From a virus: a DNA stretch of 20,462 nucleotides. A program made the position numbers and the translations under genes. The notes beneath the pieces were generated by a model. It saw only the letters and a list, made by a program, of their open reading frames with translations, did not search any database and was not told the DNA's origin. Location: IMG/VR virus record IMGVR_UViG_3300035698_009789, positions 1 through 20,462 of that record; one strand, given 5' to 3'. This document shows, piece by piece, positions 1,496-17,837 of this stretch (position 1 is its first letter; each line of letters opens with the position of its first letter).

Positions 1496-2071
1496 CTCTT
1501 TTTCGTATCTCCCCTAGTCGCCCCTCAATTATATTAAACCACAGCATATCTATATTGTATTGGTCGTAATACCCACCAGCACGAGGTAAACACCTAAAAA
1601 CTCCATCAAGTGTCGGACTACAAGCTAAATACAATCGCAAAGGGCGTGTGAGTTCTGGAGGCTGTATGCCCTTCATTATATGTTCAACCCCCAGAACTAC
1701 TTTTTTCTTTCTTCTTCCGTCACGCCAGAAAATCCATTATCAGCGTCTATCTTTGTTGATAACCACCGTGTTACCTGTATTGGTAATAATTTTTTTGCCC
1801 CATCAGTGCAGGGAACAATAACACCTTTATCATCAAGAATGTTTTTCCAACCGACAACAGCCATATTGATTTTCATTGCATTGGCTTTTCCAGCAAGATA
1901 CCTATACACAATCCTGTTATCCTTTTTCTCTGTTTCAGACGCTTCATCTTCTATTTTATCAGATTCTTCAGTTGTTAATTTTCTTAAAGTGAATACAGGT
2001 CTATCCTTTTCCTCAATATCTTTTTCTGGATAAACCACTTCATATGTTTCTTTAACATTTACTAATTGCAT
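1455..2071 (-). CDS. Tail assembly chaperone, long form made by -1 frameshift
   Basis: If ribosomes slip back one base at A AAA AAG (1706-1700), the zero-frame stop TAG is skipped. Translation then continues VVLGVEHIMKGIQPPEL and on to a TGA at 1455, giving a 205-residue product (124 + 81). The two-product arrangement (G and GT proteins) is a conserved property of long-tailed dsDNA phages, and the extension is thought to recruit the tape measure protein. In this window the extension is open, follows directly in the -1 frame, and ends inside the first codons of the tape measure gene. A separate start at ATG 1676 (MKGIQPPE...) lacks a good Shine-Dalgarno, which favours frameshifting over independent translation. 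The coding span is 2071-1700 joined to 1700-1455. Confidence 0.75.
1651..1698 (-). promoter_or_regulatory. Stem-loop downstream of the slippery site
   Basis: The arm AGTTCTGGGGG (1698-1688) can pair with CCTCCAGAACT (1661-1651): 11 pairs with one G-U wobble, enclosing a 26-base loop. Only one base separates the base of the stem from the heptamer, shorter than the usual 5-9. The lower pairs would have to be melted by the ribosome, or the upper part may act as the effective structure. The position and perfection of the repeat support a role as frameshift stimulator. Confidence 0.6.
1697..2071 (-). CDS. Tail assembly chaperone, short (zero-frame) form
   Basis: A 124-residue acidic and basic protein between the tail tube gene and the tape measure gene, the position of gpG-type chaperones. 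These coat the tape measure during tail assembly and are absent from the mature virion. The start has a strong Shine-Dalgarno (AAAAAGGAGGGGTT then ATG). The sequence is predicted soluble with no membrane segment: an N-terminal strand-rich part (YEVVYPEKD), a charged middle (DKIEDEASETEKKD) and a Lys/Glu-rich tail ending EERKK just before TAG. Identification rests on position, size and the frameshift signal at its end rather than on a strong sequence motif. The last codons AGA AAA AAG TAG contain the slippery heptamer A AAA AAG. Confidence 0.8.
   Translation of the reverse strand: MQLVNVKETYEVVYPEKDIEEKDRPVFTLRKLTTEESDKIEDEASETEKKDNRIVYRYLAGKANAMKINMAVVGWKNILDDKGVIVPCTDGAKKLLPIQVTRWLSTKIDADNGFSGVTEEERKK
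1700..1706 (-). promoter_or_regulatory. Slippery heptamer A AAA AAG for -1 frameshift
   Basis: The minus strand reads AGA AAA AAG TAG in the chaperone frame, which places A AAA AAG exactly in the X XXY YYZ phase. This is the same heptamer used by E. coli dnaX. It abuts the zero-frame stop. An AG-rich stretch (GGAAGAAGAAAG) lies just upstream and could act as an upstream Shine-Dalgarno-like stimulator. A stem follows immediately downstream. Confidence 0.75.
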
Positions 2072-2087: not shown

Positions 2088-2972
2088 TTATGTTATATCT
2101 CCACTTATTTTTAATGAATATTCTGTTGCTGGTGCATCAACATACGCAGTAAAATTAAAAGTTTCAAGAATGTAATCTGATTGACTTGAAACTGGAACTG
2201 GTCGGCTATCATATTTAATCTTTGCACAATAAAATGTAAGAGAATAACTTGACCGTGCAAAATGGACTGCAAATGACCGTGCTGAATTGGCTAAGAACGC
2301 ATCTCTCTCCGTTGTATCATCAAAAACTTTTGTGAATGACCCTGTAACCTGTAGTTTTCCAGCAGGGATTTCCATTCTCTCCATTAGCGTACCAAACAAA
2401 CCAGTTTCATTGTTGTTGTTGATTTCTAGTGACCATGCCGTAACTGATGTATCTGCTGTACCATTTAATCTTACTGAACCTTCACTATGCACATACGGAG
2501 CATCACTGGTAGTAAAACTACTGGCATTAGCCGTTGTATCTTTAAGCCCTGCCGCTTCAATTGTAGCTCCACATACTAATTCCCCCCCTTGTGAACATGA
2601 TACACTCAAAGAAGTAACCATGCATCCCGAAGCTAAAATAGCATCTGTTTCCCTGTCTATTTCTATCGCTAATGAGCTTAATGGTCTTCCAACAGAATAT
2701 GGAGATGATGTTTGTCCCAATCCACATTCCCACCACAACATACTGTTTCGTGGCGATACGGGAAACTCTATGCTTCCAGAAACAACTCTGCTTGCAGCAT
2801 TAGAATATACTTGTTCAGGGGTGTCTTGTATTAAATCGCTATATATATTCCCCTGATTTAATATCAAATCGGCACTATGAACTGGTTGCCACGTTGATGG
2901 TGTGCCACCCGAAGCAAATGATAGCTCTTTAACTATTCCTACTTTTACTTGTGCCCCAATTGGTGTTGTCAT
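2088..2972 (-). CDS. Major tail tube protein
   Basis: A 294-residue Ser/Thr-rich, strand-rich protein just before the chaperone and tape measure genes, the position of the siphovirus tail tube (major tail) protein, which polymerises into hexameric rings. Visible features are MTTPIGAQVKVGIVKE at the start, a repeated strand pattern (VVSGSIEFPV, GKLQVTGSFTK) typical of tail tube folds, and a C-terminal ETFNFTAYVDAPATEYSLKI. A Ser/Thr-rich stretch lies at about residues 147-175 (TTANASSFTTSDAP, NGTADTSVTAW). The start has an excellent Shine-Dalgarno (AAAGGAGGATATAG then ATG). It directly follows the glycan cassette, so it is the first structural gene downstream of it. That and the Ser/Thr-rich loop make it a candidate glycosylation acceptor, but nothing in the sequence proves this. 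Confidence 0.82.
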   Translation of the reverse strand: MTTPIGAQVKVGIVKELSFASGGTPSTWQPVHSADLILNQGNIYSDLIQDTPEQVYSNAASRVVSGSIEFPVSPRNSMLWWECGLGQTSSPYSVGRPLSSLAIEIDRETDAILASGCMVTSLSVSCSQGGELVCGATIEAAGLKDTTANASSFTTSDAPYVHSEGSVRLNGTADTSVTAWSLEINNNNETGLFGTLMERMEIPAGKLQVTGSFTKVFDDTTERDAFLANSARSFAVHFARSSYSLTFYCAKIKYDSRPVPVSSQSDYILETFNFTAYVDAPATEYSLKISGDIT

Positions 2973-3022: not shown

Positions 3023-4033
3023 CTATATAAAATTAATATGCAAGTTGTTAGCAATAATTACCTCGTTTATTGTCTTATTGTACCCATGAAACCTGCAATC
3101 GTATTTATTGCAGTCGTGGATTTTTATTTTGCTGATTACTTCTTTATGTCTTTTAGAAAACCATATGTCTTTAAATTTATCTTGTATGATATTCCCTATC
3201 TTATGTTCAGCCATTCTGTACTGATAATAACAGCATATATACACATCCCCACAGGGGTCTATCATTGTATGTATTGGACTCATCACACATGGCGTGTCAA
3301 GCGTGCTTGTTGTTATACCACCTTGAATTTTTGGATTGTTATATGACTTTATTACATTATTGATTACCTCTTTACGCCCATCTGATAGCTCACTTTCATC
3401 TGCCCGTACACCCTTGAATTGTATATAATCAACATCAGTGTTAATGGCGAAACGTATCATCTTATCAACTTCTTTACAATTATACTTTGATATTATAGCT
3501 TTTAACCCAATAACACACTTTGACTTTATCCTATTCTTATATCCACATAATACCCCTATATTCTCTAATACTTTATCTAACCCACGCCCCTTTGGTGGAT
3601 TTTTTACCTTCTTATATACATCATTGTCCATTGTATCTATGCTTATTCTAACGTATGTTGCCCTCTCCATTAAAATATCATAGTATTTATGTAATAGGCT
3701 TCCATTGGTTAAAATGCCGAATTCAATACCATTGTCAGTTATATATTCAACAATATCGTTAAATCTTGGGTATATCATTGGCTCTCCACCCCCACAAAAC
3801 TCAATCGCCTTTACACCGACATCTTTTAATTGCTTAACTGTATCGCATAATTTATTATAGGGATAACTCACTTTTGACCTATTTAAGTCTTTGCATAAAC
3901 AATGTGAACACGAATAGTTACATACATACGTTGGATATATCAATGCCATTCGTGGATATACCACTTCCCCCCGCTTTATAGCAAGAGCATCTTTATAATA
4001 CGATAGTATTTTATATTTATTAAATGGTATCAT
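3023..4033 (-). CDS. Radical SAM/SPASM domain protein
   Basis: A 336-residue radical SAM enzyme with the [4Fe-4S] motif C38-x3-C42-x2-C45 (CNYSCSHC), the GGGEP SAM-binding motif at 81-85, the strand pattern ILTNGS at 107-112 and RISIDTMD at 129-136. Its C-terminus is SPASM-like, with cysteines at 249, 261, 267/268, 308 and 313 around IDPCGDVYICCYY and IGN...DIW. Such enzymes generate a 5'-deoxyadenosyl radical to modify peptides, sugars or other substrates, and the SPASM part usually binds auxiliary clusters. The substrate is unknown. It is the last gene of the glycan cassette. Its ATG overlaps the upstream stop (ATGA, 4030-4033) and it has no clear Shine-Dalgarno, so translation is coupled. 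Its spacing to the tail tube gene (50 bases) is the second largest gap in the cassette region. Confidence 0.85.
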   Translation of the reverse strand: MIPFNKYKILSYYKDALAIKRGEVVYPRMALIYPTYVCNYSCSHCLCKDLNRSKVSYPYNKLCDTVKQLKDVGVKAIEFCGGGEPMIYPRFNDIVEYITDNGIEFGILTNGSLLHKYYDILMERATYVRISIDTMDNDVYKKVKNPPKGRGLDKVLENIGVLCGYKNRIKSKCVIGLKAIISKYNCKEVDKMIRFAINTDVDYIQFKGVRADESELSDGRKEVINNVIKSYNNPKIQGGITTSTLDTPCVMSPIHTMIDPCGDVYICCYYQYRMAEHKIGNIIQDKFKDIWFSKRHKEVISKIKIHDCNKYDCRFHGYNKTINEVIIANNLHINFI

Positions 4034-5739
4034 TTTTTTGCTATTATAACCGCATTATCCCCGATATCGTGAAAGAATAAATTGGTCAGGTTGTAATCTA
4101 TACTCTTTTTTCTATCTTCTGGTATCTTGTCCCAAAATGTTCTCATCTCTGTACTACAGGGTAATTCTGGTATAGCTTTTAATTTCTCAAACATATCCTC
4201 ATTATCACACCTTCTTGTATCTACTGGTAATATTTTACATTCACTCCAAGGTGCTGTCCAGAGTATATTGTAATATTCTTCCAATGTAGGCTGACTCTCA
4301 TTAATGTGATATACATCTATATTTCTTCGTACATCCGCTTCTGCTTCTTCCTTTGTTCTCCATACAGGGCGTGGGGGTTCTCCTCCATCTGCAAATACCC
4401 CACCTTTCTTTAAAACCCTATAAAACTCCTTCATAGCCATCTCTTTGTGTCTAAAATGATGAAATGCAGAAGTCATAAATACATGGTCAAAATATTCGTC
4501 TTTAAATGGTATGTTATGCCCATCACCGCAAACACACATAATTCTAGCCTTTGCGTGCTCTCTTAATTGTACAGCACTACCTAACCCTTTAATCTCGTCA
4601 TCACATATATCAAGCATAACTACCAATGCACCTTTTTTTGAAAAATAATTTGCCTCCCATCCTATTTCCCCACCAAGATTGAGTATAACCTTACCCTTCA
4701 CATCTCCCATATGTTGATATGCCATTTCAATCATTCTTGCGTTAACCTTCCATGAATGGTGGTCTACATAAGGGTGTTTATCAAGCTCTTTTACTCCTAT
4801 TGCCACATAGCTCCCACCATCCTTGTGTATATCGACGCTTCCCTTTGCTTCTAGAGCCACTTCACTCCACGTTGCTTCGTTATAAAGATAGTATATCCCG
4901 TTGTTTATTTTAAATTTAGTTTTGCAGGTTCCACAAAATCCACACACTACTTCAGAAACAATGGGTGGGTTTTGTTGTTTGCATATTGGGCATATCATTG
5001 CTTCCCGTACTTCTTGTTTTTTGCATTGATGTTCCCAATCATCTTTTTGAGCTTGTGAGCAAGTTAGTTCCTGTAGTGCCATATTTTTATAATGATATAG
5101 GTATACAGCTTCATTGGTAGCATATTTATATCCAGCCCACCTCATTCTCCAAAACCAATCAACATCTTCAAATCCACCTAACCCATGATGTTCATCAAAA
5201 TTCCCTATTTCTTTTACCAGTTCTGCCTTGAATAAAAAACATGACCCGATAACTGCCTCATACCAACTTCCTTCTTTTCCAGTTGAAAGTTCTTTAGCTC
5301 TTTGATTAAATTCTTCTGGCGTAAATTTCTCGTCAAATACAACATTTGCCCCCATATGTACCCCTGATACTAGCATAGGGCTTACAATGTTAATTTTTGG
5401 TTCGTAACTGAATGTTTTTATTAGTTGTGATAACCATTTCTCCGATACAAGCATATCATTGTTCATTATACAGATATAATCTTCTTGTGCCAATTTTAAT
5501 CCCTGATTCCATACCCTTGAACACCCGCCAGAATTTTTCTCATTATTAACAATGACTTTTCTTATCATATTTTTATTTACAAACTCTACCCTATCAAGCA
5601 TATCTTTTGTATTGTCAGTTGAAGCGTCATTTATTATAATAAGCTCGTAAGGATAGTCTGTATATTCATCAACGCTATTGATACAGTCCTGCGTTATTTT
5701 AGCATTATTATATGCTGGTATTATAAGACTTAATCCCAT
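4030..5739 (-). CDS. Bifunctional GT2 glycosyltransferase, Trm112-like zinc ribbon and methyltransferase
   Basis: A 569-residue fusion. Residues 1-235 form a GT2 (GT-A fold) domain: LSLIIPAYNN at the start, INDASTDNT at 36-44, the NND metal-binding motif at 93-95 followed by WLSQL, GSCFLFK at 165-171, and GGFEDVDWFWR at 188-198, as in rhamnosyltransferase-like GT2 enzymes. Residues 249-285 form a Trm112-like zinc ribbon (C250-x2-C253, C266-x2-C269, C272) ending INNGIYYL. Residues 345-450 form a class I SAM methyltransferase: motif I ILNLGGEIG (352-360), acidic residue in MLDICD (375-380), and FDHVFMTSAFHHF (417-429). It may add a sugar and then methylate it, or methylate a chain end (inference). 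The gene overlaps the upstream stop by 10 bases and is preceded by GGGGGATAAC. The downstream radical SAM gene is coupled by ATGA. Confidence 0.85.
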   Translation of the reverse strand: MGLSLIIPAYNNAKITQDCINSVDEYTDYPYELIIINDASTDNTKDMLDRVEFVNKNMIRKVIVNNEKNSGGCSRVWNQGLKLAQEDYICIMNNDMLVSEKWLSQLIKTFSYEPKINIVSPMLVSGVHMGANVVFDEKFTPEEFNQRAKELSTGKEGSWYEAVIGSCFLFKAELVKEIGNFDEHHGLGGFEDVDWFWRMRWAGYKYATNEAVYLYHYKNMALQELTCSQAQKDDWEHQCKKQEVREAMICPICKQQNPPIVSEVVCGFCGTCKTKFKINNGIYYLYNEATWSEVALEAKGSVDIHKDGGSYVAIGVKELDKHPYVDHHSWKVNARMIEMAYQHMGDVKGKVILNLGGEIGWEANYFSKKGALVVMLDICDDEIKGLGSAVQLREHAKARIMCVCGDGHNIPFKDEYFDHVFMTSAFHHFRHKEMAMKEFYRVLKKGGVFADGGEPPRPVWRTKEEAEADVRRNIDVYHINESQPTLEEYYNILWTAPWSECKILPVDTRRCDNEDMFEKLKAIPELPCSTEMRTFWDKIPEDRKKSIDYNLTNLFFHDIGDNAVIIAKK

Positions 5740-6389
5740 GTTATCCCCCTAGCTGCAAAGTCCTTTATAACCCTTTTGTATCCATCAACAAAACTTTTCA
5801 CCCATGGCAGTTTTGAGTATCTATATTTTAATATCAACATTTTATATGTATTTGCAAATCGTGTTTCATCTAAATCTTGGTCTACCCGTGTCTTTCTATG
5901 TTCAAAAAACATATCATTGCATTTGATTATTTTATAGGGTCGCATAAAAGATGTATGTATTAAATCACAAAATTCTGCGTTATCTTTTCTCCCTAACCGT
6001 AATTGGTAATTTAAATCAGAAATGGCAATTTCACAGTCATCCATAAATTCTTTTCTTAAAAACGCATATACACATTTTTCTGACGTTTCTAATGTGGTTA
6101 TTTTTCTTATAAACTCAATTGTTTTTTGATTCCATACCTCATCAGGAAATACAAGTAATATCCAAGGATTAGAACATTTGGTTTTTGCAAATTCGTAATA
6201 TGCCTCGCAATATCCAACACATGGTACTTTATATATGCTTGCACCATTCTCCCGTGCTATTGTAATTGTCTTGTCTTCACTCTCTTGGTCAACTACAACA
6301 AATTCGTCCCCAAGTCCTTTTAAATTATCGAACATTCGTTGCATATATTTTTCTTCATTTCTCACCACCGTAAATATACTTAATTTCAT
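5730..6389 (-). CDS. GT2-family glycosyltransferase (LPS-core type, WaaE/KdtX-like)
   Basis: A 219-residue GT-A glycosyltransferase. The N-terminus KLSIFTVVRNEEKYM and the DEFVVVDQESEDKT segment (28-41) match the small GT2 subgroup that includes LPS core glucosyltransferases. The expected DxD-type motif is degenerate: LVFPDEVW at 79-86 has Phe where the neighbouring paralogue has Asp, which may alter metal binding or the donor used. The C-terminal FVDGYKRVIKDFAARG resembles the end of the next upstream protein, so the two genes look like a tandem duplication that has diverged. The Shine-Dalgarno is G-rich (TAGGGGGGAAT then ATG). Predicted cytoplasmic, with no membrane segment. Donor and acceptor are unknown. 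Confidence 0.8.
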   Translation of the reverse strand: MKLSIFTVVRNEEKYMQRMFDNLKGLGDEFVVVDQESEDKTITIARENGASIYKVPCVGYCEAYYEFAKTKCSNPWILLVFPDEVWNQKTIEFIRKITTLETSEKCVYAFLRKEFMDDCEIAISDLNYQLRLGRKDNAEFCDLIHTSFMRPYKIIKCNDMFFEHRKTRVDQDLDETRFANTYKMLILKYRYSKLPWVKSFVDGYKRVIKDFAARGITWD

Positions 6390-6397
6390 ATTCCCCC

Positions 6398-7015
6398 CTA
6401 GTATGTTCCCTCTTGTATAATTTTTTTGTAATATCCGACAAACGACTTATATGTGCCATGGTTTGTGTCCCCATATCGACATAATAACCTTTTCGCCCCT
6501 TCAATTCTATAGTTTTTTCTACTTTCTTTCTCTGTTCGCAAATTGTCTATATTCCCTTCCAATATTCTTCCTCTCCGTAACTCATGTATATTATACGGTG
6601 TAGCATTAAGGGTGTCAGTCCATAACACCTTATCTTTTCTGTATAGCCGTATGTGATAATGATGTTCTTTTCCATTCCATGTCATATGGCACTCTATAAC
6701 ATCTTGTGGTCGTTTTATTTCTGCTTCTAATCTCTGTAATAAATCTAACGACCATCTTTCATCAGGGTCACATTTTAATATCCAATTATGTTTTGCCATC
6801 AACGCCCCTTGATGTATATACGCAAATGGGTAATACACCTTTGGGAATAAATATACCTTATCTGTAAACTCTCTTGCGATTTTAACTGTATCATCTGTGC
6901 TTTCTTGGTCTATTACTACAAAATCATCAACAAATGGAGCAAGGTTCGTAAATGCTTCTTTGATGTATTTTTCCTCGTTATGTACTACTGATACCACTGA
7001 AATTTTCTTTTCCAC
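6398..7015 (-). CDS. GT2-family glycosyltransferase (LPS-core type), GTG start
   Basis: A 205-residue protein starting ISVVSVVHNEEKYIKE, with DDFVVIDQESTDDTVKIA at 30-47 and the metal-binding motif KCDPDERW at 81-88, all typical of short GT2 enzymes that add a hexose to LPS-core-like acceptors. The C-terminal part has FVGYYKKIIQEGTY, similar to the end of the downstream paralogue. The start codon is GTG at 7015, with AGGGGGAAATTAA in front. It overlaps the nucleotidyltransferase gene by 38 bases. The intact DPDE motif suggests that this copy is a functional metal-dependent transferase. Acceptor and donor cannot be told from the sequence. Confidence 0.82.
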   Translation of the reverse strand: MEKKISVVSVVHNEEKYIKEAFTNLAPFVDDFVVIDQESTDDTVKIAREFTDKVYLFPKVYYPFAYIHQGALMAKHNWILKCDPDERWSLDLLQRLEAEIKRPQDVIECHMTWNGKEHHYHIRLYRKDKVLWTDTLNATPYNIHELRRGRILEGNIDNLRTEKESRKNYRIEGAKRLLCRYGDTNHGTYKSFVGYYKKIIQEGTY

Positions 7016-7427
7016 TTAATTTCCCCCTGTACCATGTTGTTGAAACACCCTCCGTATATGGCAGATATATTACTTCCTTACCCAATCCTTCTCCATCATA
7101 AGTTATAGGCGACCAATCACTACCCTTAAATAAAACGTCCGGATTGTACTTATGCACCAATATGCTGAGAGTAAGGAAATCACGTTTATCAATTACGTCT
7201 GCATATCCAGTTAATTGTACGAGATGCACTCTATCATTATAAGACAATAATGGTTTTATATTTTTTAATGCTGTTAAATATTCGTCAGAAGCTACACATA
7301 CTATCAACTTCTCGCATTGTTCTTTTGCCCTTCTCAATAGATTGATATGCCCTACATGGCATAAATCAAATCCACCAGTAGTCATTCCCGTCTTGTAAGT
7401 CTTTCCTGCACGTTGGTTTTGTAACAT
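6978..7427 (-). CDS. Cytidylyltransferase-like nucleotidyltransferase (GCT/HldE-C type)
   Basis: A 149-residue enzyme of the HxGH nucleotidyltransferase superfamily. It shows TTGGFDLCHVGH (16-27, with HVGH at 24-27), LLRRAKEQCEKLIVCVASDE (30-49), PDVLFKGSDW (96-105) and YTEGVSTTWYR (124-134). This C-terminal signature is shared by glycerol-3-phosphate cytidylyltransferases (TagD) and heptose-phosphate adenylyltransferases (HldE C-domain). GSDW resembles the GDDW of TagD, but a sugar phosphate substrate is not excluded. I place the start at ATG 7427 because AAGGAG lies 7 bases upstream; a longer frame reaches 7463 without such a site. It overlaps the LicD-type gene by 62 bases. It probably makes a CDP- or ADP-activated group that the cassette transferases use. 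Confidence 0.82.
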   Translation of the reverse strand: MLQNQRAGKTYKTGMTTGGFDLCHVGHINLLRRAKEQCEKLIVCVASDEYLTALKNIKPLLSYNDRVHLVQLTGYADVIDKRDFLTLSILVHKYNPDVLFKGSDWSPITYDGEGLGKEVIYLPYTEGVSTTWYRGKLSGKENFSGISST

Positions 7428-7935
7428 TGTAATGCTCCTTATGCGGTATTCGCCAATCTCCATACTTCTCAGTTAAAAACCCTTCCCAATCTTTTGGGAT
7501 ATTAAATGTTCTACCGTAAAATTCTATCTGAGTTAATTCTTCTAAGTACCTTGCTTGATGAACTAAGCAATATTCTCCAATGTGTGCAGGTACATATCGT
7601 TTATCGCCAATTCTAAACCACCCGAAAAAATCAGCTTTTTCTTCATACCCATATATTTTTACTCCGTAAGGCAACCCATTCCAAGGTCGTTTGTGTCTAT
7701 GGTCTACCACTTCTACCCTTAATCCACTTTCCTCAAGTGCTACTCCGAATTTTCTTATTACTGGTATAAAATCTTCACTTAGACACGTAAAATCAATATC
7801 CTCATCTATGGGAATAAACGCCTGTTGCCGTACTGCTCCCAAACAAGTACCCCCATATAACATATATTTTATATTCATTTTTTCTGCTATATCTGCTATA
7901 TGAAACAATAATTTTTTTGCATTTTCCTCAATCAT
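7366..7935 (-). CDS. LicD-family phosphotransferase
   Basis: A 189-residue protein with the LicD/fukutin core: YMLYGGTCLGAVRQ (24-37) followed by FIPIDEDIDFTC (40-51), where the DEDID acidic cluster is the expected metal-binding site, and the C-terminal FNIPKDWEGFLTEKYGDW (144-161). LicD-family enzymes move a phosphorylated alcohol or sugar alcohol (choline phosphate in LicD itself; ribitol or glycerol phosphate in the fukutin group) from a CDP-activated donor to a glycan. The next gene encodes a cytidylyltransferase-like enzyme and overlaps this one by 62 bases, a strong hint that it supplies the donor. The start follows AGGGGCAAG and overlaps the upstream stop by 8 bases. Predicted cytoplasmic. 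The transferred group is unknown. Confidence 0.85.
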   Translation of the reverse strand: MIEENAKKLLFHIADIAEKMNIKYMLYGGTCLGAVRQQAFIPIDEDIDFTCLSEDFIPVIRKFGVALEESGLRVEVVDHRHKRPWNGLPYGVKIYGYEEKADFFGWFRIGDKRYVPAHIGEYCLVHQARYLEELTQIEFYGRTFNIPKDWEGFLTEKYGDWRIPHKEHYNVTKPTCRKDLQDGNDYWWI

Positions 7936-8590
7936 CTTGCCCCTGAATGGTTAATCGGCTTTTAGCATAGCGTTCATATAGTTCCCTTTTTATGTTTTCC
8001 CCCATTCCCCCAAGTGCATTACTGTCCCATGCTTCTTCCAATTGGGTATACTTTGTAGTTGGTATCACATATTGTCGTAACTTTGGCGTTAATATAGCCA
8101 ATTCAAGTTCACCGTTGTAAATCGAAAACTTGTAATAATCCATTCCCATAAACTCTTTTTTGTATGTCATTGTCAGGTATCCCATTACAACGTCTACTCT
8201 TTTAGGTTCATTTATGTGTATTCCATGCAACACCTCTCTTTTGTCGAAGTAATCTCCATGAAAAATTGTACCTGCAACACCAATTAGTGTGCTTGGTTTT
8301 ATATGATTAAGTAGTTCTCCACTTAATCCATGTTGAGGTACTATATCGTCATCACCATGTATAATTATATCATTTTTAGCCATGTCCGCCATGCTATACC
8401 TTATTGCTAAATTGAAATTGATTTGTGAATTTATAACTGTAACTGGTAACTTCGTTTTAAATGTACCAGAATTATCCCATATAATAACCTCATCTACTTC
8501 TTCCTCATCTAACCATGCCTGAATTATTCTCTCGAAATTCTTAAACCTTTTCCAACACGTTAGTATTACTGACACTTTTTGCTCCACCAT
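7928..8590 (-). CDS. GT-A fold glycosyltransferase (GT2/GT64-like)
   Basis: A 220-residue protein that starts KVSVILTCWKRFKNFERI. It has EVIIWDNSGTF at 34-44 and the metal-binding cluster HGDDDIVP at 78-85, the arrangement of small GT-A glycosyltransferases related to the GT64/exostosin C-domain. The middle shows GVAGTIFHGDYFD, and ALGGMGENIKRELY lies near the C-terminus. The start (ATG 8590, SD GGAGGAGT) lies inside the end of the SPASM gene, a 50-base overlap, and the stop overlaps the LicD-type gene by 8 bases, so translation of the three genes is probably coupled. GTG 8587 is an alternative start. Donor sugar and acceptor are unknown. Confidence 0.75.
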   Translation of the reverse strand: MVEQKVSVILTCWKRFKNFERIIQAWLDEEEVDEVIIWDNSGTFKTKLPVTVINSQINFNLAIRYSMADMAKNDIIIHGDDDIVPQHGLSGELLNHIKPSTLIGVAGTIFHGDYFDKREVLHGIHINEPKRVDVVMGYLTMTYKKEFMGMDYYKFSIYNGELELAILTPKLRQYVIPTTKYTQLEEAWDSNALGGMGENIKRELYERYAKSRLTIQGQDD

Positions 8591-9104
8591 ACTCCTCCAT
8601 TCTATTAAACTTGCATTTTTTACAGAAATCCATTTCTTCTAAGTTTTGAGCATTTACCCGTAAATCCCTGTTCCTACTATTATTCCATATCCCCCATATT
8701 GTACTCTTATTTAAATTGCCAATAACGTGTTGCCCTGTTATATCATTCGCACACTTGACACAGCTTCCATCCCATAATACCGTTAATACGCTTAGGAGTC
8801 TTTTGCAGGGGATTTTTTTTCCTGTTTGCTCTGGTAATCCCCTTTCTATGTATTTTGCCTCAAAAATCCTTATTTTTCTTAATCTTCCTTCTATCCTCTG
8901 TATAAATCTTCCATACCTCATATCACTTGACTTCCACCCATATACAATAAATTCAATTCCTTTTACCTCTCTTATAGTGATAATTTCACGTAATATCTTA
9001 TTCACCAGTTTTTCGTGCATATATCCAACTTGCCGCAGCGTTTCCTTTTTATATCCACTATTTGTGAGTTCAATTGATATTATTTTAGGTGTGTCAAATT
9101 CCAT
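8541..9104 (-). CDS. SPASM-domain protein with a deleted radical SAM core
   Basis: A 187-residue protein whose C-terminal half is a clear SPASM domain: IPCKRLLSVLTVLWDGS (98-114), CVKCANDITGQHVIGN (115-130), an IWGIWNN helix and MDFCKKC (158-164), with cysteines 100, 115, 118, 161 and 164. The N-terminus PKIISIELTN (6-15) and RQVGYMHEKLVNKILREI (24-41) match the flanks of the usual cluster loop of radical SAM/SPASM proteins, but the CxxxCxxC between them is gone (SGYKKETL instead). The core barrel is also far too short: about 60 residues lie between these parts and the SPASM domain. It cannot perform standard radical SAM chemistry. It may be a decaying gene, or an accessory Fe-S or carrier protein. 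The start overlaps the B12-radical SAM gene by 11 bases with a weak SD (AAGAAG). Confidence 0.7.
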   Translation of the reverse strand: MEFDTPKIISIELTNSGYKKETLRQVGYMHEKLVNKILREIITIREVKGIEFIVYGWKSSDMRYGRFIQRIEGRLRKIRIFEAKYIERGLPEQTGKKIPCKRLLSVLTVLWDGSCVKCANDITGQHVIGNLNKSTIWGIWNNSRNRDLRVNAQNLEEMDFCKKCKFNRMEEYGGAKSVSNTNVLEKV

Positions 9105-10404
9105 ATAGCTTCTTATATCCCCTGTTTTTGTGCCATTGATATAGTTTTTTGTATTGTTTATTTTCAGGTATCAAAGTCAATAATAATATAATTGGTAATA
9201 AGAATGGATACATAACCCCAACTGAAAACATCTTTTGTATGTTATTAATAAAACGGGCATTTTTTACCTTTAAAATTGTTTTGCTGAAAAAATCCTTACT
9301 GAATGTATCCGTATCTCCATTCCATAACCCCATCTGTGTGGCTATTTCCCCCAGTTTTGTGCTTGGGTATGGTTGAAATATGCTCATCCATGCTATGGTA
9401 GGGGAACACCTAATATTTAAAAATATTGTCTTTATTGTTTCTTTCCATGTTTCTCCGGGAACTCCAACCATATTCTCTGTTCTGAATTTTATCCCAACAT
9501 TGTGTAATATCATAGCACCAGCCAATATCTGCTTATTGGTCATTCTTCTATTTAATATCTCCCTTCTGATTGTATTATCCCCATTTTCTATAGCAAAGGT
9601 AACACCATTGCATCCTGCATATTTTAATAATAATGCATTTCTTGTGGTTAATTTCTCTATTCGTATCTGACAATGAAAAGGAACTTTAACCTCTTTTCTA
9701 TATAACTCCATTAATTTATTAAAGTTAGGATTTAATAAGAACTCATCATCTTCAAAGTATATCAATTTTGCTTTCCATGTATCCCGTAATTCTATACACT
9801 CTTGAACAACATTCTCTGGTGAACGATACCGTACAACCTTTTGCCCCTTATATAATTTTCTATATAATACATTATAGCAGTATGGACAATTATACGGACA
9901 TCCCCTGCTTGTTATTACATTTTTTATAGGGTTTTCGTAATTTTTCTGGTATTTATAGAGTATTTCCCTGTCAGGGAAGGGTGTTGTATCTAGATTATGC
10001 GATAATTCGCCTAACCCAAAGTCCTTGCTGATTGTTTCACCTTTCTCAAGTTGATTCAATAGCATAGGAAACGATACCTCACCCTCACCCCTTATTATAT
10101 AGTCAACGCCTTTAGCATTTGCTATTTCAGGGAAATAAGTAACATGGGGTCCCCCAAAAACTGAAACAAGTTGTGGATAAGTTCTTTTTATTTCATTATT
10201 GAGTTGTAGGTAGTAATTTTGACTACCTGTAGTTATGGAGTATGCTAGAACTTGTGGTTTAAAGTCCCTAATAGCCTCATAGGGGCTTTCTTTTACAGTT
10301 TTAATAGCTGTGGTAGGGTGTCCTGCCTTTTTAAGTGCAGAAGCCAAATAAGCCATTCCTAATGGTTCTATCTCCCAATCATGCAGTATAAACAACACTC
10401 GCAT
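9094..10404 (-). CDS. B12-binding domain radical SAM protein
   Basis: A 436-residue protein. Residues 1-130 resemble a cobalamin-binding Rossmann domain (MRVLFILHDW, IEPLGMAYLASALKKAGH, then FGGPHVT at 83-89 and YIIRGEGE at 102-109). A radical SAM core follows, with C169-x3-C173-x2-C176 (CPYNCPYC), YFEDDEF at 216-222 and FAIENGD at 270-276. The typical DxHxxG cobalamin-ligand motif is not evident near the N-terminus, so B12 may be bound base-on or not at all. The C-terminus has a hydrophobic stretch (396-412, MYPFLLPIILLLTLI) that could associate with a membrane. Related enzymes methylate unreactive carbons or rearrange sugars and lipids; the substrate here is unknown. SD AAGGAATCTTT precedes ATG 10404. 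A 60-base gap separates it from the upstream methyltransferase. Confidence 0.82.
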   Translation of the reverse strand: MRVLFILHDWEIEPLGMAYLASALKKAGHPTTAIKTVKESPYEAIRDFKPQVLAYSITTGSQNYYLQLNNEIKRTYPQLVSVFGGPHVTYFPEIANAKGVDYIIRGEGEVSFPMLLNQLEKGETISKDFGLGELSHNLDTTPFPDREILYKYQKNYENPIKNVITSRGCPYNCPYCYNVLYRKLYKGQKVVRYRSPENVVQECIELRDTWKAKLIYFEDDEFLLNPNFNKLMELYRKEVKVPFHCQIRIEKLTTRNALLLKYAGCNGVTFAIENGDNTIRREILNRRMTNKQILAGAMILHNVGIKFRTENMVGVPGETWKETIKTIFLNIRCSPTIAWMSIFQPYPSTKLGEIATQMGLWNGDTDTFSKDFFSKTILKVKNARFINNIQKMFSVGVMYPFLLPIILLLTLIPENKQYKKLYQWHKNRGYKKLYGI

Positions 10405-10456
10405 AAAGATTCCTTATAGGACAATAAATCTGACACCAGTCCAATATTTTGTCCAT
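10379..10456 (-). CDS. Possible 25-residue leader ORF before the B12-radical SAM gene
   Basis: In the 60-base gap upstream of the B12-radical SAM gene, ATG 10456 follows a strong Shine-Dalgarno (TAGGAGAAAAC) and opens a frame MDKILDWCQIYCPIRNLYAS ending at a TGA at 10379, overlapping the next gene start by 26 bases. It lies in the -1 frame relative to the end of the methyltransferase, which itself ends with an A AAA AAG in frame. It may be a coupling leader, or a remnant. No homologue is recognised. Confidence 0.35.
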   Translation of the reverse strand: MDKILDWCQIYCPIRNLYASVVYTA

Positions 10457-10464
10457 GTTTTCTC

Positions 10465-11199
10465 CTATTTCTTTTTTAAGTTTACCCCTACCGCAAATAC
10501 AGAAAATTCGGAAGGGACTGCATCCTTTTCTTTGTGTGTAGGTAATAAATATTCATCAAAATAAAATGGACTCATATTGATTAATTTTACAAATGTTGGT
10601 ATGGTATAAGCCCGTGTCTTATCGTTTGAAATATTTTCATACGGTTTAAAAACTCTGTTTGTAGCAAAATCTACTGTCATGCTAACCAATCCATCATCTT
10701 TAAGTATCCTTGCACATTCCTCAAGAGCCTTTAAATCGTCCTCTACGTGTTCAAGTACGCTTACGGAGATAATTTTATCGAAATGTTCGTCTGGGTATAA
10801 GGTGTTTTGTATATCTGCATATTCAGCTTTAAGGTTAGGTCTTTTTCTATTAAGCTCATCTAACCATTGCTGTTCTTCCATATCGTTTCCCGTTTTTCCC
10901 ATACCATATAATCTTGTCCATGCGAAATTATCTGTTGTGGTTATGTGATATGTAATATCTGCTACCATTATAGCAAAAAATGTAGACCATGCCCCAAACT
11001 CATATACTACATCAGTTGGTTTAAAGTTAGCATTTTCCCATATCATATAATGCTCTTTTATTCTACCGCCTATAACATCCTCCAATCCCCTTGTTGGGTT
11101 TTGTTTTAGATAGCTTGGTAATAGTTTTTCTTTATACATAGTCTTAAAGTCTATATAAGCCTTTTCTCTTGTTTTAATATCGCCATTTTGATATATCAT
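10465..11199 (-). CDS. Class I SAM-dependent methyltransferase
   Basis: A 244-residue protein with a methyltransferase core from about residue 60. Motif I is VVYEFGAWS (64-72), in place of the common D/E-x-G-x-G-x-G. The acidic residue after strand 2 is TTTDN (87-91), and motif IV/V is HFDKIISVSVLEHVEDD (139-155), which matches the Methyltransf_11/23 type closely. The C-terminus ends FAVGVNLKKK. The atypical glycine loop suggests altered SAM binding or a distinct subfamily. It probably methylates a sugar or an intermediate of the cassette (inference). Its ATG overlaps the GT9 stop (ATGA), with GGAG 8 bases upstream. Confidence 0.78.
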   Translation of the reverse strand: MIYQNGDIKTREKAYIDFKTMYKEKLLPSYLKQNPTRGLEDVIGGRIKEHYMIWENANFKPTDVVYEFGAWSTFFAIMVADITYHITTTDNFAWTRLYGMGKTGNDMEEQQWLDELNRKRPNLKAEYADIQNTLYPDEHFDKIISVSVLEHVEDDLKALEECARILKDDGLVSMTVDFATNRVFKPYENISNDKTRAYTIPTFVKLINMSPFYFDEYLLPTHKEKDAVPSEFSVFAVGVNLKKK

Positions 11200-12032
11200 T
11201 TCACTTGCTCCATTACGGTTGATACGGCTATGTTCTCAATACAGCTTTTACCAAACCTACAATTTCCATGACACCGTTGTTTTTCACATTCATCCATTGT
11301 GCTAGATAGAATATGAATTACATTGTTTCCATACGGAGATGATGTCGTTGGTATCGTGGGACCCATTAAAACTATTGTCTTAATACCAGCAGTACACGCC
11401 AAATAACTCAATCCACTATCCAAGCCTATAAACAGGTGGCATTGTTTTAATAAATTGTATAATTCACTGAAATTGTATTTTCCACATCTATTATCCACTT
11501 CATTTACGCTTGAATCATCTTTTCCACCAATCTGAATTATGTTGTATCCCTTACCTTTTAGCTGTGCTACAAGTTCATTGAATTTGCTCCAGTCCTTGCT
11601 TTTAACCAAAGTCTGTGTATGAATAGCTATTGTTTTTTGCGGTACTTCTGGTTTAAGTGCTTTTGGGTCTGGGTAAAATACCAATGCATCATCTAGGAGG
11701 CTTTTAAATCCACACCTTCTCGCATAAAATTCAGCTAAATGAAGATGTTTCCACATTGGGTTATGATGCCATAAATTGTCAAACCTAGATGTTTGTTGGG
11801 GGATTATTACTTTATCGTATTCTTGCTCACCTATCTGTAACAATACATCATCCCATGAATCAGGTACTATTACTCTGGTTATATTGGGGTTCCATTTAAT
11901 TAAATCAATATATTCTTTTTTGACGAAAAAACTTATCTGAGCATCTTCATGTGTCATTGCTATTTGATTGACAAGTGTATTTCCAATAATAGCATCACCT
12001 AACGTCCGAAGTAATACAATAGCTATTTTCAT
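11196..12032 (-). CDS. GT9 (heptosyltransferase-family) glycosyltransferase
   Basis: A 278-residue GT-B enzyme of the ADP-heptose:LPS heptosyltransferase family. It shows the N-terminal IVLLRTLGDAIIGNTL (5-20) with the conserved LGD, KDWSKFNELVAQL (146-158) and the C-terminal donor-binding segment FIGLDSGLSYLACTAG (201-216) followed by VLMGPT. It ends with a Cys-rich tail (C249, C254, C258, C264), which is common in this family. At 278 residues it is shorter than typical WaaC/WaaF (about 320-350). The donor need not be heptose. The start ATGA overlaps the upstream stop, with SD GGAGGGGGAA immediately before it. Predicted cytoplasmic or membrane-peripheral. Confidence 0.85.
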   Translation of the reverse strand: MKIAIVLLRTLGDAIIGNTLVNQIAMTHEDAQISFFVKKEYIDLIKWNPNITRVIVPDSWDDVLLQIGEQEYDKVIIPQQTSRFDNLWHHNPMWKHLHLAEFYARRCGFKSLLDDALVFYPDPKALKPEVPQKTIAIHTQTLVKSKDWSKFNELVAQLKGKGYNIIQIGGKDDSSVNEVDNRCGKYNFSELYNLLKQCHLFIGLDSGLSYLACTAGIKTIVLMGPTIPTTSSPYGNNVIHILSSTMDECEKQRCHGNCRFGKSCIENIAVSTVMEQVK

Positions 12033-13150
12033 TTCCCCCTCCCATATAAATTATCTATTACCCAACGAGCTTGGTTCATAAAAGTATATCTTTGTAAGAA
12101 TTTTCTCCCGATTTTTGCCTTTGCTTTTGCTTCTTCCCTATTATTGTATACGTGCCTCATTGTTTTTTGTAGTTCATCAACACTTACTTTCGCCCATTGA
12201 TGTCCTAACGCATGAGGACACTTTTTGATATAATCTATACTATTAATAGTTTCTAGTTCGTATTCAAGCATATAAGCAACATTCTCATTTAAAAACTCTG
12301 TTTGCCCTCCCCAATTAGTCGTAATGCAGGGGACCTCACAGGAAAGAGCTTCAGCGAGGGGTATGCCTAACCCTTCCCCGTGGCTCGGCAAAACCAAGCA
12401 ATCCCCAGCACGATAAAAACAAGGCATTATTTCTTGTGGTAATTTATCACCGAACAATAGAATTCTTGGTAAATGTGTCTTTCTTATAGTTCTTATATAT
12501 GCAAAGATTTTATTAAAAAGGTTAACCTGAAACCTATATTGAAATCCAGCAAAATGAACCTTTAATATTAACGCTACATCATCTTTATCTGTGAATTCAT
12601 TTACATAGGCAGTCAATAAAGTTTCAAAATTTTTCCTCTCTGTAAAATCACCGACTGACATGAAGTTAAATCCCTTTCTATTGCATATGTCTATTGCGGG
12701 AACATCTGGAGAATATTTTTCTGTATCAATAGCAAAAGGCATTATTTTTATCTTTGTTTTAACGTGTTCCTGCCACATCCATTTATTGAATTCAGAAAAT
12801 ACCCATACTTCATCTATCTTATTAAAATTTTCAACCCATCCTGACGGTGGTCTATCTGTTTCAAATAATGACATACACACTATCTTTTCTGCCTCTGCAT
12901 TGCATTTTATATCATCACCTTCAACTAATTGTTGAAGTATTAAAGCTGATGTTTGACTAGACCCAGCTTTTTGACACATATTCAGTCGTTCAGTATTTTC
13001 AATGTTTAAAGGTATTTTCTCTAAATTCCACTCTCCCTTATCCTTTAAATGTACGTTAACTCCCATTTTGTGTAATTGTAAAACTAATCCTCTACATATA
13101 TATTCCCATCCACTCTGTCCATAAACTGGAACTCTCATTCGTATATCCAT
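12029..13150 (-). CDS. GT4-family glycosyltransferase
   Basis: A 373-residue GT-B glycosyltransferase. N-terminal features include MRVPVYGQSGWEYICRGL and ETDRPPSGWV. The C-terminal GT4 domain shows FMSVGDFTERKNFETLL (163-179) and HGEGLGIPLAEALSC (257-271), whose E259 and E267 form the E-x7-E donor-binding motif. GT4 enzymes are retaining transferases using nucleotide-sugars. I choose ATG 13150 because GGAGG lies 7 bases upstream and the ATG overlaps the previous stop (TAATG); a GTG two codons earlier is possible. Its partner upstream is also a GT4 but of a different subtype, so the two probably act in sequence. Confidence 0.87.
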   Translation of the reverse strand: MDIRMRVPVYGQSGWEYICRGLVLQLHKMGVNVHLKDKGEWNLEKIPLNIENTERLNMCQKAGSSQTSALILQQLVEGDDIKCNAEAEKIVCMSLFETDRPPSGWVENFNKIDEVWVFSEFNKWMWQEHVKTKIKIMPFAIDTEKYSPDVPAIDICNRKGFNFMSVGDFTERKNFETLLTAYVNEFTDKDDVALILKVHFAGFQYRFQVNLFNKIFAYIRTIRKTHLPRILLFGDKLPQEIMPCFYRAGDCLVLPSHGEGLGIPLAEALSCEVPCITTNWGGQTEFLNENVAYMLEYELETINSIDYIKKCPHALGHQWAKVSVDELQKTMRHVYNNREEAKAKAKIGRKFLQRYTFMNQARWVIDNLYGRGK

Positions 13151-14358
13151 TAGCACACCTCCAACAATTTAACTGGACTTTCTGGCGATAATGGTGTTTC
13201 AACAATATTTAGCACCCTGTTCCAATGTATAATAATATTTTCCCAATCTCTTGCTTTTGCCCATTTATATCCAGATTCTCCATATAAATCTCTTTTCTCT
13301 TTATCTCTATATGCTTCTGCCATTGTATCTGCTAATTGATTAATGTTTGGATATGGTCGCTCTGTCCCATGTTTACCTGTCATATAGGTACTAGGTTCTA
13401 CCATCCAAGCTCTACCTTCTCCTATTTCAATATTTGCTGAATGGTTCAATAATATGCACGGTAGTTTTGTAGCCATAGCTTCAATCGTCGGTAATCCGAA
13501 TCCTTCACCACTTTGTAATAAAAATACATCCGACATATTATAAATCTTATTCAAATTTTCTTCTGACAATAGCGTTACATTGCTTGTTCCGTGAGCCACT
13601 TCATCAAGATACATAACATCATTAACCATATCATAATCCTGAAATATCTCATCAAGATTATGTCCCATTGGGTCTTGAAAATAACAATGAAACCATATCT
13701 TTGCGTTTTTTGCCCCACCATTATTTTTAAATATTTTCCATGCTTTACATATTTCTGGTATGTTTTTTCTGGGTTGGTTTCTCGCAACAACAAGGTATAG
13801 AAATGAATCTATAAGATTTTTTCCAATCCCACGCCGTAATTTTTCTTTCTGCCCTTCGAGTGGACGAAATCTTTTTGTATTAACTCCATGATGTATAACC
13901 AATGGTTCTCTTTTAATAGATTTCATAATAACTGCCTTACCGTATCTTGTATACGCAACCAATGTATCAACATCCATGAGTGTTCGTTTCCATGAAGCAG
14001 GTACTTGTCCGTTATAGGCATTTCCATCTATAGGTATATATGCAATCCATTTAAAGAGTCGCCTTGTTTTTGTAGTTTCCCAATCGGCAATATAATTCAC
14101 CATCCATTCATCACCAATAGTTAAAACCACATCTGGGAGTGTCTGCATAACAACATTATCAAAAACATCTCTGCCGTAGTGCATATTTTTTGTTTGAAAT
14201 AATGGGTAGGGAGCATTGTTTACTACGTTGGGGTCTGAAAACCATCCTAAATAAAAAACTTCATGCCCAGTTTTTTGTAATCCCTCGGCTATATTTCTTC
14301 CAACGGTAGCCATGCCCGTATGGACATTGGGATTGTCCGTCATTATTAAAATCCGCAT
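13150..14358 (-). CDS. GT4-family glycosyltransferase (first gene of the cassette)
   Basis: A 402-residue GT-B enzyme: MRILIMTDNPNVHTGMATVG at the N-terminus, VIHHGVNTKRFRP (154-166), LVVARNQPRKNIPEIC (189-204) and QSGEGFGLPTIEAMATK (282-298) with the E-x7-E pair E285/E293. I place the start at ATG 14358 because AAGGAGGGG precedes it; a longer frame to 14385 would overlap the previous gene and lacks such a site. The gene begins 16 bases after the tail-terminator-like stop, with no promoter visible, so it is likely transcribed from the late structural promoter. Donor and acceptor are unknown. Confidence 0.88.
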   Translation of the reverse strand: MRILIMTDNPNVHTGMATVGRNIAEGLQKTGHEVFYLGWFSDPNVVNNAPYPLFQTKNMHYGRDVFDNVVMQTLPDVVLTIGDEWMVNYIADWETTKTRRLFKWIAYIPIDGNAYNGQVPASWKRTLMDVDTLVAYTRYGKAVIMKSIKREPLVIHHGVNTKRFRPLEGQKEKLRRGIGKNLIDSFLYLVVARNQPRKNIPEICKAWKIFKNNGGAKNAKIWFHCYFQDPMGHNLDEIFQDYDMVNDVMYLDEVAHGTSNVTLLSEENLNKIYNMSDVFLLQSGEGFGLPTIEAMATKLPCILLNHSANIEIGEGRAWMVEPSTYMTGKHGTERPYPNINQLADTMAEAYRDKEKRDLYGESGYKWAKARDWENIIIHWNRVLNIVETPLSPESPVKLLEVC

Positions 14359-14374: not shown

Positions 14375-14818
14375 TTATACGTCAATCAATCTAACACACT
14401 CAAGTAACAATGTAGCTATGAATAAATAAAAATTATCCCCTAAATCTGCTGTAACATATTCCGTGTTTCTTATTTCCAATGGTTTTGATAGATAACTCGT
14501 AAGCGTATTAATTCTAATAGCACTTTTTACGTCATTTATTAAATCAATAGCACCATCATTTCTACTATCCCCAATTATCGCTGTTTCCTTTATCATTAAT
14601 CTTGTTACAACATATAATTCGACGTTATGTATTAATTCTTTCTTTTGTGCTACCCATCTCTCGGCTGTATTTATTGGTGCTAATCCAATATAGGGAACCA
14701 TTCCTTGATTTATGCTTGGTAGCGTTCTTGGAGCAACAATCTCATATTTCTTAAATTTTGCTTTTACCGTTGCATTTGTATTTAAAGTTGTTCTTAATCT
14801 TGTGAGTATTGTATCCAT
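14375..14818 (-). CDS. Tail terminator-like / minor tail-joining protein
   Basis: A 147-residue protein (ATG 14818, SD GGAGGAATA, TAATG overlap with the upstream stop). It follows the tail-completion gene and, apart from the inserted cassette, precedes the tail tube gene, the position of tail terminator proteins that cap the tube and stop its growth. Visible features are an N-terminal helix DTILTRLRTTLNTNATVKAK, a strand region YEIVAPRTLP, NVELYVVTRLMI and a C-terminal LGDNFYLFIATLLLECVRL. This is consistent with the small alpha/beta fold of terminators. Assignment is mainly by position. It is the last head-tail junction gene before the glycan cassette. Confidence 0.6.
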   Translation of the reverse strand: MDTILTRLRTTLNTNATVKAKFKKYEIVAPRTLPSINQGMVPYIGLAPINTAERWVAQKKELIHNVELYVVTRLMIKETAIIGDSRNDGAIDLINDVKSAIRINTLTSYLSKPLEIRNTEYVTADLGDNFYLFIATLLLECVRLIDV

Positions 14819-15357
14819 TATTCCTCCACTATATCCCCTATCCATGTATCAAATATCATCTCAATAGCCCTTACATCCTCATCCTGTAGCATAATAAAAG
14901 GTCTTGCTGGTACATTATAACGGACTTCTGGAATTTCAACTCTCTTAGCGAAAATCACCTTATTCCCTATAGTAAATCGTAATGCTTTTGCTTTCTTAGG
15001 TACAACCGTATGAGCTGGCATTATATTTATTCCACCAAATTGTAATTTTCGTGCATACGGGATTGATGTTCCGACTTCAACGGAATTCCTAGTAATATCC
15101 ATTCCTATACTTCGCCTTAATGTTCCTGTATCCTGTAATATCCTATAGGGAGCTACGCCCCTTCTTCTTTTTTTAGTCATAGCCGATAAGGGAGCCCATT
15201 TTATAGGTCGCCCTTCAAATCTAAAATTATCATCTACTGACTTCATTGTGTATAATCCTGCAACTGTTAATGGAACATTAATATTCTCTAACCGTTGTAT
15301 TGATTTCTGGAGAGATTTTTTTAATTCCTGTATTTCATCTATCTTAATCTCTATCAT
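14818..15357 (-). CDS. Phage virion morphogenesis / tail completion protein (Mu gpG-like)
   Basis: A 179-residue protein matching the phage virion morphogenesis (tail completion, P2 gpS/Mu gpG) family: an N-terminal helix region IQELKKSLQKSIQRLENI, RPIKWAPLSAMTKKRRRG (49-66), RILQDTGTLRRSIGM (72-86), YARKLQFGG (101-109) and a C-terminal ARPFIMLQDEDVRAIE. These proteins complete the head-proximal tail end or neck. The start overlaps the connector gene stop by 14 bases, so it is coupled. It is followed by the tail-terminator-like gene through TAATG. Confidence 0.82.
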   Translation of the reverse strand: MIEIKIDEIQELKKSLQKSIQRLENINVPLTVAGLYTMKSVDDNFRFEGRPIKWAPLSAMTKKRRRGVAPYRILQDTGTLRRSIGMDITRNSVEVGTSIPYARKLQFGGINIMPAHTVVPKKAKALRFTIGNKVIFAKRVEIPEVRYNVPARPFIMLQDEDVRAIEMIFDTWIGDIVEE

Positions 15358-15811
15358 CAGCTATATCTTCCGTTAGGTCTTCACTTATTATGCTTCCATC
15401 TAAGTCTGATATTGGTGTATAGTCACCCCTATTACTTCTTACTTCGTCTGCAATTGTATTGCTTAATTCTGGTACCTTTATTTCTCCATTCACTATTTTT
15501 TCCAATAATCCAATTGGTTTTTCCCAATATTCTGCTTTTGTGTTTTTATCCAACGGGTTTGGACCAGGGTGCTTTGCTCGTCTAATATAATAAACGGCAA
15601 AATCTTCAGTTATACTGTTTATAAGGTTTGGTACATCATCAATAGATGTCCAAGGTACTGTACTTCCAATTAATGCTTCTAAGTATGAATTTACTAGCCG
15701 AGTTGCCCTTTTTCTTCCAGCCGTAATATCATCTGTCGATATTTCTTCATCTGAAACATTCCCCAGTTCCCTGCTAACCTCAACTATATCTCCATACAAT
15801 AATTCACTCAT
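15344..15811 (-). CDS. Head-tail connector-like protein (gp36/DUF1320-like)
   Basis: A 155-residue acidic, helical protein. The segment YGDIVEVSRELGNVSDEEI, a charged stretch GRKRATRLVNSYLEAL and the helix ITEDFAVYYIRRAK followed by PGPNPLDKNTKAEYWEK resemble Mu gp36/gp6-type connector proteins, which join the portal to the neck. Residue count and place (between capsid gene and tail completion gene) fit. The C-terminus is strongly acidic (EDLTEDIADDRD). The start overlaps the previous stop by 4 bases (ATGA). Confidence 0.68.
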   Translation of the reverse strand: MSELLYGDIVEVSRELGNVSDEEISTDDITAGRKRATRLVNSYLEALIGSTVPWTSIDDVPNLINSITEDFAVYYIRRAKHPGPNPLDKNTKAEYWEKPIGLLEKIVNGEIKVPELSNTIADEVRSNRGDYTPISDLDGSIISEDLTEDIADDRD

Positions 15812-17798: not shown

Positions 17799-17837
17799 GT
17801 TCATTCTCCTTTGTTATTGCTACTTACATTACTTCTA

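Follow-up and report, generated by a model that had tools for sequence, protein, structure and literature searches.

The window, that is, the whole stretch of DNA analyzed here, is the complete 20,462-base IMG/VR record IMGVR_UViG_3300035698_009789, a linear fragment of a siphovirus genome represented by a single metagenomic contig. Between the tail terminator gene upstream and the tail tube gene (PF18906) downstream lies a cassette of 13 predicted glycan genes, numbered c1 to c13 in order of transcription, which fill positions 14358 to 3023 of the minus strand, are all co-oriented, and mostly overlap by short distances or nearly abut, the largest gap being the 60 bp between c4 and c5. Inspection of the open reading frames (ORFs) found 13/13 cassette genes in the window, and the ORFs, the Pfam assignments, and the predicted terminator fold agree with the arrangement described in the original prediction made from the letters alone. 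Border genes and cassette genes, which include enzymes dependent on S-adenosylmethionine (SAM), are listed in order of transcription.

14375..14845, minus strand: tail terminator, upstream border, by AlphaFold model and Foldseek
13150..14358, minus strand: c1, GT4-family glycosyltransferase, core (Pfam PF00534; E-x7-E motif GEGFGLPTIE)
12029..13156, minus strand: c2, GT4-family glycosyltransferase, core (Pfam PF00534; conserved in L013, L014, and L017)
11196..12032, minus strand: c3, GT9 (heptosyltransferase-like) glycosyltransferase, core (Pfam PF01075)
10465..11199, minus strand: c4, class I SAM methyltransferase (Pfam PF08241, E 3.5e-11)
9094..10404, minus strand: c5, B12-binding radical SAM enzyme, core (PF02310 and PF04055; CPYNCPYC at 169)
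8541..9104, minus strand: c6, SPASM domain protein (PF13186, E 4.8e-11)
7928..8590, minus strand: c7, GT-A glycosyltransferase, weak (PF00535, E 5.7e-4, under the curated cut-off; DDD motif in the sequence)
7366..7935, minus strand: c8, LicD-family phosphotransferase (PF04991, E 1.5e-14)
6978..7385, minus strand: c9, TagD-like cytidylyltransferase (PF01467; TIGR01518 and TIGR02199 below cut-off)
6398..7015, minus strand: c10, GT2 glycosyltransferase (PF00535, E 5.5e-14)
5730..6389, minus strand: c11, GT2 glycosyltransferase (PF00535, E 1.5e-5)
4030..5739, minus strand: c12, GT2 glycosyltransferase and methyltransferase fusion (PF00535 at 4-178, PF08241 at 354-449)
3023..4033, minus strand: c13, radical SAM/SPASM enzyme, final cassette gene (PF04055 and PF13186)
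2088..2972, minus strand: tail tube protein, downstream border and proposed acceptor (Pfam PF18906, E 1.2e-31)

L-numbers here and below denote viral loci of relatives, and G-numbers viral contigs of relatives. The terminator gene has no Pfam or PHROG match, but an AlphaFold model built from a 10-sequence alignment (predicted local distance difference test score, pLDDT, 80.1) has among its best Foldseek matches the tail terminators of T5 (p142), lambda (gpU), Mu, and R4C, and its identity as a tail terminator is thereby confirmed at the level of modeled fold.

Pfam recovers nearly all the enzyme classes originally proposed, namely two GT4, one GT9, and two GT2 glycosyltransferases, the GT2-methyltransferase fusion, a separate methyltransferase, LicD, the cytidylyltransferase, two radical SAM proteins, and a SPASM-only protein; the exception is c7, which has no PDB match at E < 0.1 and is a probable but weak member of the GT-A class. 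The solved structure nearest to c1 is the chlorovirus NY-2A glycosyltransferase B736L (PDB 3oy2), matched over the whole length of c1 (residues 1-391, E 6.4e-13). For c3 the PDB matches are 3tov and TibC (4rb4), a protein O-heptosyltransferase, and for c5 the nearest is AprD4 (6fd2, E 1.6e-20), whose substrate is an aminoglycoside sugar; an AlphaFold model of c5 from 3 sequences was discarded (pLDDT 57). Having neither a PF04055 match nor a CxxxCxxC motif, c6 cannot be an ordinary radical SAM enzyme and is probably degenerate or non-catalytic. PDB matches were obtained for both halves of c12. The nearest PDB match of c9 is the glycerol-3-phosphate cytidylyltransferase 2b7l (E 3.8e-17, query residues 26-153), and because TagD homology begins there, the c9 start very likely lies at about 7385 rather than at 7463 as first read; the start of c1 at 14358 needs no such correction, its ATG being kept in three relatives. 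LicD-type c8 matches the NCBIfam choline-phosphotransferase model Mf1 below cut-off (E 1.9e-19) and the ribitol-phosphate transferase FKRP weakly (E 0.002); with c9 nearest to a glycerol-3-phosphate cytidylyltransferase, family membership suggests that c8 and c9 are therefore probably a cytidine diphosphate (CDP)-polyol synthase and its transferase.

Relatives were sought with alignments, since a scan of viral contigs with c1 as a single protein found no match; one built from three capsid proteins yielded 80 viral loci. The order terminator-GT4-GT4-GT9-B12-radical SAM-tail tube is exactly kept in the L014 and L017 groups, whose major capsid proteins (MCPs) are 51% and 49% identical to that of the window, with one additional small ORF in the L014 group. 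Four further contigs carry parts of the set at the same junction: L013 ends after GT4-GT4, L012 ends after methyltransferase-GT4, and the first gene on the contig, immediately upstream of the tube, is the B12-radical SAM gene in L097 and a c13 homolog in L004. Conservation of c1 extends to 4 lineages, and that of c5 to L014, L017, and L097. Identities of c1, c2, and c3 between lineages parallel those of capsid, terminator, and tube; the c5 of the L014 group looks replaced. Within the L014 group the ratio of nonsynonymous to synonymous substitution rates (dN/dS) is 0.07 for c1, 0.10 for c2, 0.12 for c3, and 0.06 for c5, compared with 0.03-0.17 for structural genes, so that purifying selection acts on the core as strongly as on those genes. 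The same order and junction in relatives, the parallel divergence, and the low dN/dS together argue that this phage group has carried the core for a long time and under selection. Comparison of the sequences indicates that c1, c2, c3, and c5 are the old shared core, and that c4 (not present in the L014 or L017 cassettes) and c6-c13 are an expansion in the window phage. The cassette had been described as inserted; this fits the expansion, not the core, and we found no insertion marks (repeats, tRNA genes, or mobility genes) at the cassette flanks in the window. We also observed that the B12-radical SAM gene at L098:2296-4680 is interrupted, directly ahead of the third CxxxCxxC cysteine, by an intein (PF14890, LAGLIDADG), and that the gene in its close relative L014 has none; inteins tend to home into conserved active sites.

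The original prediction had proposed comparing related genomes with and without the cassette. We surveyed the junction in 46 loci with neck and tube genes on one contig, which represent 31 tube clusters at 80% identity: i) in 20/31 clusters neck and tube are separated by a terminator-sized gene with, at most, small ORFs besides, and by no glycan gene; ii) 3/31 clusters carry the core at the junction; and iii) 8/31 clusters have a single gene of ~330 residues between terminator and tube, matching PF01973 (MptE-like/DUF115, the Maf/PseD domain). The profile of this last gene fits PDB 5mu5, which we take to be a Maf glycosyltransferase (the database record calls it uncharacterised), better than it fits MptE, and NCBIfam places three of the junction members, weakly, with PseD, a flagellin modification protein. 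Maf enzymes glycosylate flagellin, a tube-forming subunit, in the cytoplasm. Pfam found no PF01973 domain among the window proteins, and neither the tail tube nor the Maf-like gene had a tblastn match among isolated phages. The occurrence of two unrelated kinds of glycosylation gene at one junction suggests that their product acts on something that is produced or assembled there, and this is our strongest argument.

Evidence on export comes from a relative as well as from the window. Contigs G001 and G003 share 11.6 and 10.3 kb at 99.9-100% identity, one stretch at each end of G003, and hence belong to a single phage; together they form a closed circular map of ~62 kb. Flippase (PF01943, Polysacc_synt) and polymerase (PF04932, Wzy_C) were found in 0/11 records, with controls positive in 13/14 and 10/14 genomes; the ~62 kb map has no Polysacc_synt or Wzy_C match, its controls being positive, and a simple count by hydropathy gives none of its proteins more than two hydrophobic segments. 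The window fragment likewise has no flippase, Wzy-type polymerase, or multi-spanning protein, and hydropathy revealed no multi-spanning or membrane-anchored transferase among the 13 cassette genes, so that they do not match a Gtr serotype-conversion cassette, which has a GtrA flippase, a membrane-bound GtrB, and GtrC. The absence of such genes, originally noted for the window, thus extends to the covered map of the relative. A scan of 84,980 genomes found no chromosomal member of the c1 family, but only two distant matches, both on 5-6 kb contigs of Verrucomicrobiota metagenome-assembled genomes (MAGs) rich in phage-like beta-structured proteins. On these searches the cassette is phage-borne, not a host polysaccharide locus. 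The lack of export genes in the relative and of a chromosomal c1 makes an exported polysaccharide less likely and favors an acceptor in the cytoplasm.

We consider it fairly probable that the cassette encodes a cytoplasmic pathway for glycosylating a virion protein, the tail tube subunit being the likeliest; both acceptor and chemistry are inferred. The preference for virion proteins over export expressed in the original prediction is partly upheld by the missing export genes, the phage-borne origin, and the shared junction, and is less secure as regards the acceptor: that the tail tube is the main one is plausible but doubtful. Several observations weigh against our reading. Neighborhood is no proof of target, and other phages' cassettes adjoin capsid or portal genes; and the tail tubes of the group have no Ser/Thr-rich C-terminal tail. 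The tail tube does have the highest Ser+Thr content among window proteins (22.8%), but the fractions for cassette-bearing (0.205), Maf-bearing (0.222), and empty (0.181) clusters overlap in range in a comparison that ignores phylogeny, and we dropped Ser/Thr content as an acceptor signal because the difference is too weak.

The same enzymes could instead remodel the host envelope during infection, acting on lipid-linked sugars, O-antigen, or teichoic acid through a host flippase so as to block superinfection or the binding of progeny to debris. GT4, GT9, GT2, LicD, TagD-like enzymes, and methyltransferases are all classes found in bacterial surface polysaccharide loci, and some of the GT2 genes match PHROG families named for O-antigen conversion; we nevertheless judge this improbable, given that neither the window nor the covered map of the relative has a Wzx-type flippase, a Wzy, or a membrane-anchored transferase, that the genes sit among structural genes in several lineages, and that c1 has no chromosomal homolog beyond two small phage-like contigs. 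Hypermodification of phage DNA bases by the glycosyltransferases and radical SAM enzymes is less probable again. DNA modification is the best-known activity of phage glycosyltransferases (PMC13216743, T4), and one relative has, at L111:9752-11419, QueC (by Pfam), QueE-like radical SAM, and QueD-like genes, which suggest that its DNA may hold 7-deazaguanine; yet Pfam finds no hydroxymethyl-base genes or DNA-modification partners among the 13 genes, the cassette lies among tail genes and not with replication genes, and polyol or choline phosphates are the substrates of LicD and TagD-like enzymes. A search of the relatives for TET/JBP (PF12851) found no match, but its control was silent too.

About as improbable, or slightly more so, is a role in making or maturing a small peptide or soluble metabolite, such as a glycosylated ribosomally synthesized and post-translationally modified peptide or a nucleotide analog. 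Two radical SAM enzymes, one with SPASM, and the scores of c13 against the PADLOC viperin models (E 1e-21) would suit such a role, but no precursor peptide or peptide-recognition domain was seen, glycosyltransferases outnumber radical SAM enzymes three to one in the core, and c13, which carries SPASM, falls far under the NCBIfam viperin cut-off (58.7 bits against 180). For this last reason, and with the remaining PADLOC matches weak or generic, a viperin-type (pVip) defense system was rejected; automatic defense annotation may mislabel c13-like genes as viperin. An assembly chimera that joined the cassette to the structural genes is nearly excluded: the window is a single linear metagenomic contig, but the terminator-c1 junction recurs in the independent contigs L012 (with one extra gene), L013, L014, and L017, the c5-tube junction in L097, L014, and L017, and a c13 homolog before the tube in L004, and composition is smooth, with genes overlapping through the middle.

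If the cassette does glycosylate a virion protein, the pathway that we infer, with its step order, timing, sugar identities, and benefit, might run as follows. The cassette would be expressed late together with the surrounding structural genes, and the tail tube subunit encoded directly downstream would be modified before or during tail assembly. One core transferase (c1, c2, or the GT9 enzyme c3) would attach the first sugar to a Ser/Thr of the acceptor, with the others lengthening the glycan, c3 being a candidate initiator because GT9 relatives include a protein O-heptosyltransferase; c5 would deoxygenate or C-methylate a sugar; c7 and c10-c12 would add more sugars in the window phage, and c4 and the c12 methyltransferase cap them; c9 would make a CDP-activated polyol phosphate, most likely CDP-glycerol, for c8 to attach the polyol phosphate; and c13 would modify a sugar or the peptide. 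The finished glycan might shield or tune the tail and/or capsid. A bolder version, in our view rather unlikely, is that a large group of uncultivated siphoviruses uses the junction as a hotspot dedicated to glycosylation, and that the tube of the window phage is coated with a long glycan that is decorated with polyol phosphate and contains a sugar made by the B12-radical SAM enzyme, which would amount to a viral glycoprotein resembling teichoic acid and assembled wholly in the cytoplasm.

The rest of the window has a siphovirus structural gene order on the minus strand: two small genes, protease, decoration/scaffold-like gene, MCP, two further small genes, connector, neck, and terminator upstream of the cassette, and tail tube, chaperone-like gene, and tape measure gene downstream. 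Coordinates are as follows.

17838-19595, minus strand: head maturation protease
17412-17804, minus strand: decoration/scaffold-like protein
16478-17401, minus strand: major capsid protein
15344-15811, minus strand: Gp36-like connector
14818-15357, minus strand: neck protein (PF05069)
1697-2071, minus strand: chaperone-like gene

A small ORF at 1455-1676 of the window, between the chaperone-like and tape measure genes, keeps the motif CSPTLDG..RCLPR.GGYYDQ in other lineages seen, and is possibly a second tail assembly chaperone. At L002:3546-4487 one 313-residue ORF comprises two tandem tail terminator domains and is followed by a GDP-mannose 4,6-dehydratase-like gene (5577-6566).

Phages of the same capsid family also carry glycan genes elsewhere, adjoining the capsid gene or upstream of the protease (L024, L043, L117, L118). 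L043:11029-16663, which lies between capsid and neck genes, is a cluster of glycosyltransferase-like, GT4, and Anp1-type genes with a radical SAM/SPASM fusion, and L119:6233-12143 is a single run of weakly Maf-like, several glycosyltransferase-like, radical SAM/SPASM, and FkbM methyltransferase genes, apparently adjoining structural genes. Two relatives (G003 and G002) have a second cluster upstream of terminase (L110:15201-17672, L111:1-2486, L116:2689-7514) with GT4, GT2, methyltransferase, and radical SAM/SPASM genes; in G003 (L111) this terminase-side cluster includes a B12-radical SAM gene.

The common view of phage particles is that their protein is unmodified by glycans. If our reading is right, virion glycosylation would be a regular trait of a broad environmental siphovirus group, and modification of the tail tube in particular would be selected, as several lineages have a conserved multi-enzyme glycan pathway in the tail operon and others have a flagellin-glycosyltransferase-like gene instead. 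The cassette would also offer a self-contained, membrane-free set of glycosyltransferases, together with a radical SAM enzyme of the sugar type, and its acceptor would be predictable.

Judged by its genes, the cassette would work like known virion glycosylation. Three papers (PMC12619734, PMC12363180, PMC11256854), drawing on Freeman et al. 2023, describe phage-encoded glycosyltransferases that modify the capsid and tail tube of the mycobacteriophages Che8, Corndog, and Myrna. The likeness lies in the phage-encoded enzymes, the acceptors reported for mycobacteriophages being capsid and tail tube subunits; the mycobacteriophages, as presented there, have few glycosyltransferases, which in Maravista, a close Che8 relative, lie near the genome 3′ end (PMC11256854), whereas here 4-13 genes, including radical SAM, LicD, and cytidylyltransferase genes, lie between terminator and tube. 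Flagellin glycosylation by Maf/PseD is akin in that related genes occupy the same junction in 8 phage clusters and the acceptor would be a tube-forming subunit glycosylated in the cytoplasm; it differs in that the window has no Maf-like gene and the core is GT4/GT4/GT9/B12-radical SAM. Chloroviruses make their own capsid glycans (PMC4691112), glycosylating their own structural protein with their own enzymes, and c1 is closest in sequence to their B736L, whose acceptor is unresolved (PMC9614988), but these are eukaryotic viruses with another enzyme set. Among public phage records, Mae-JY09 has one annotated glycosyltransferase and S-CBS4 three genes in the structural operon, and podovirus ctQWt234 has a six-gene run of radical SAM, glycosyltransferase, PhyH, methyltransferase, NodB, and glycosyltransferase; all resemble the window in having glycosyltransferase and methyltransferase genes (and radical SAM in ctQWt234) inside the head/tail block, but comprise 1-6 genes after the portal or capsid gene, with no B12-radical SAM, LicD, or GT9 annotated. 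We found no studies of these three cassettes in the literature, and they are apparently unstudied. The system had been called unusual, which holds for its length, position, and enzyme set, but not for the presence of glycan genes in a structural operon, of which these records are shorter examples. The novel features are the fixed terminator/tube position, the length, a core that includes a B12-radical SAM enzyme, a probable branch with polyol phosphate, and the exchange for Maf-like genes in other clusters.

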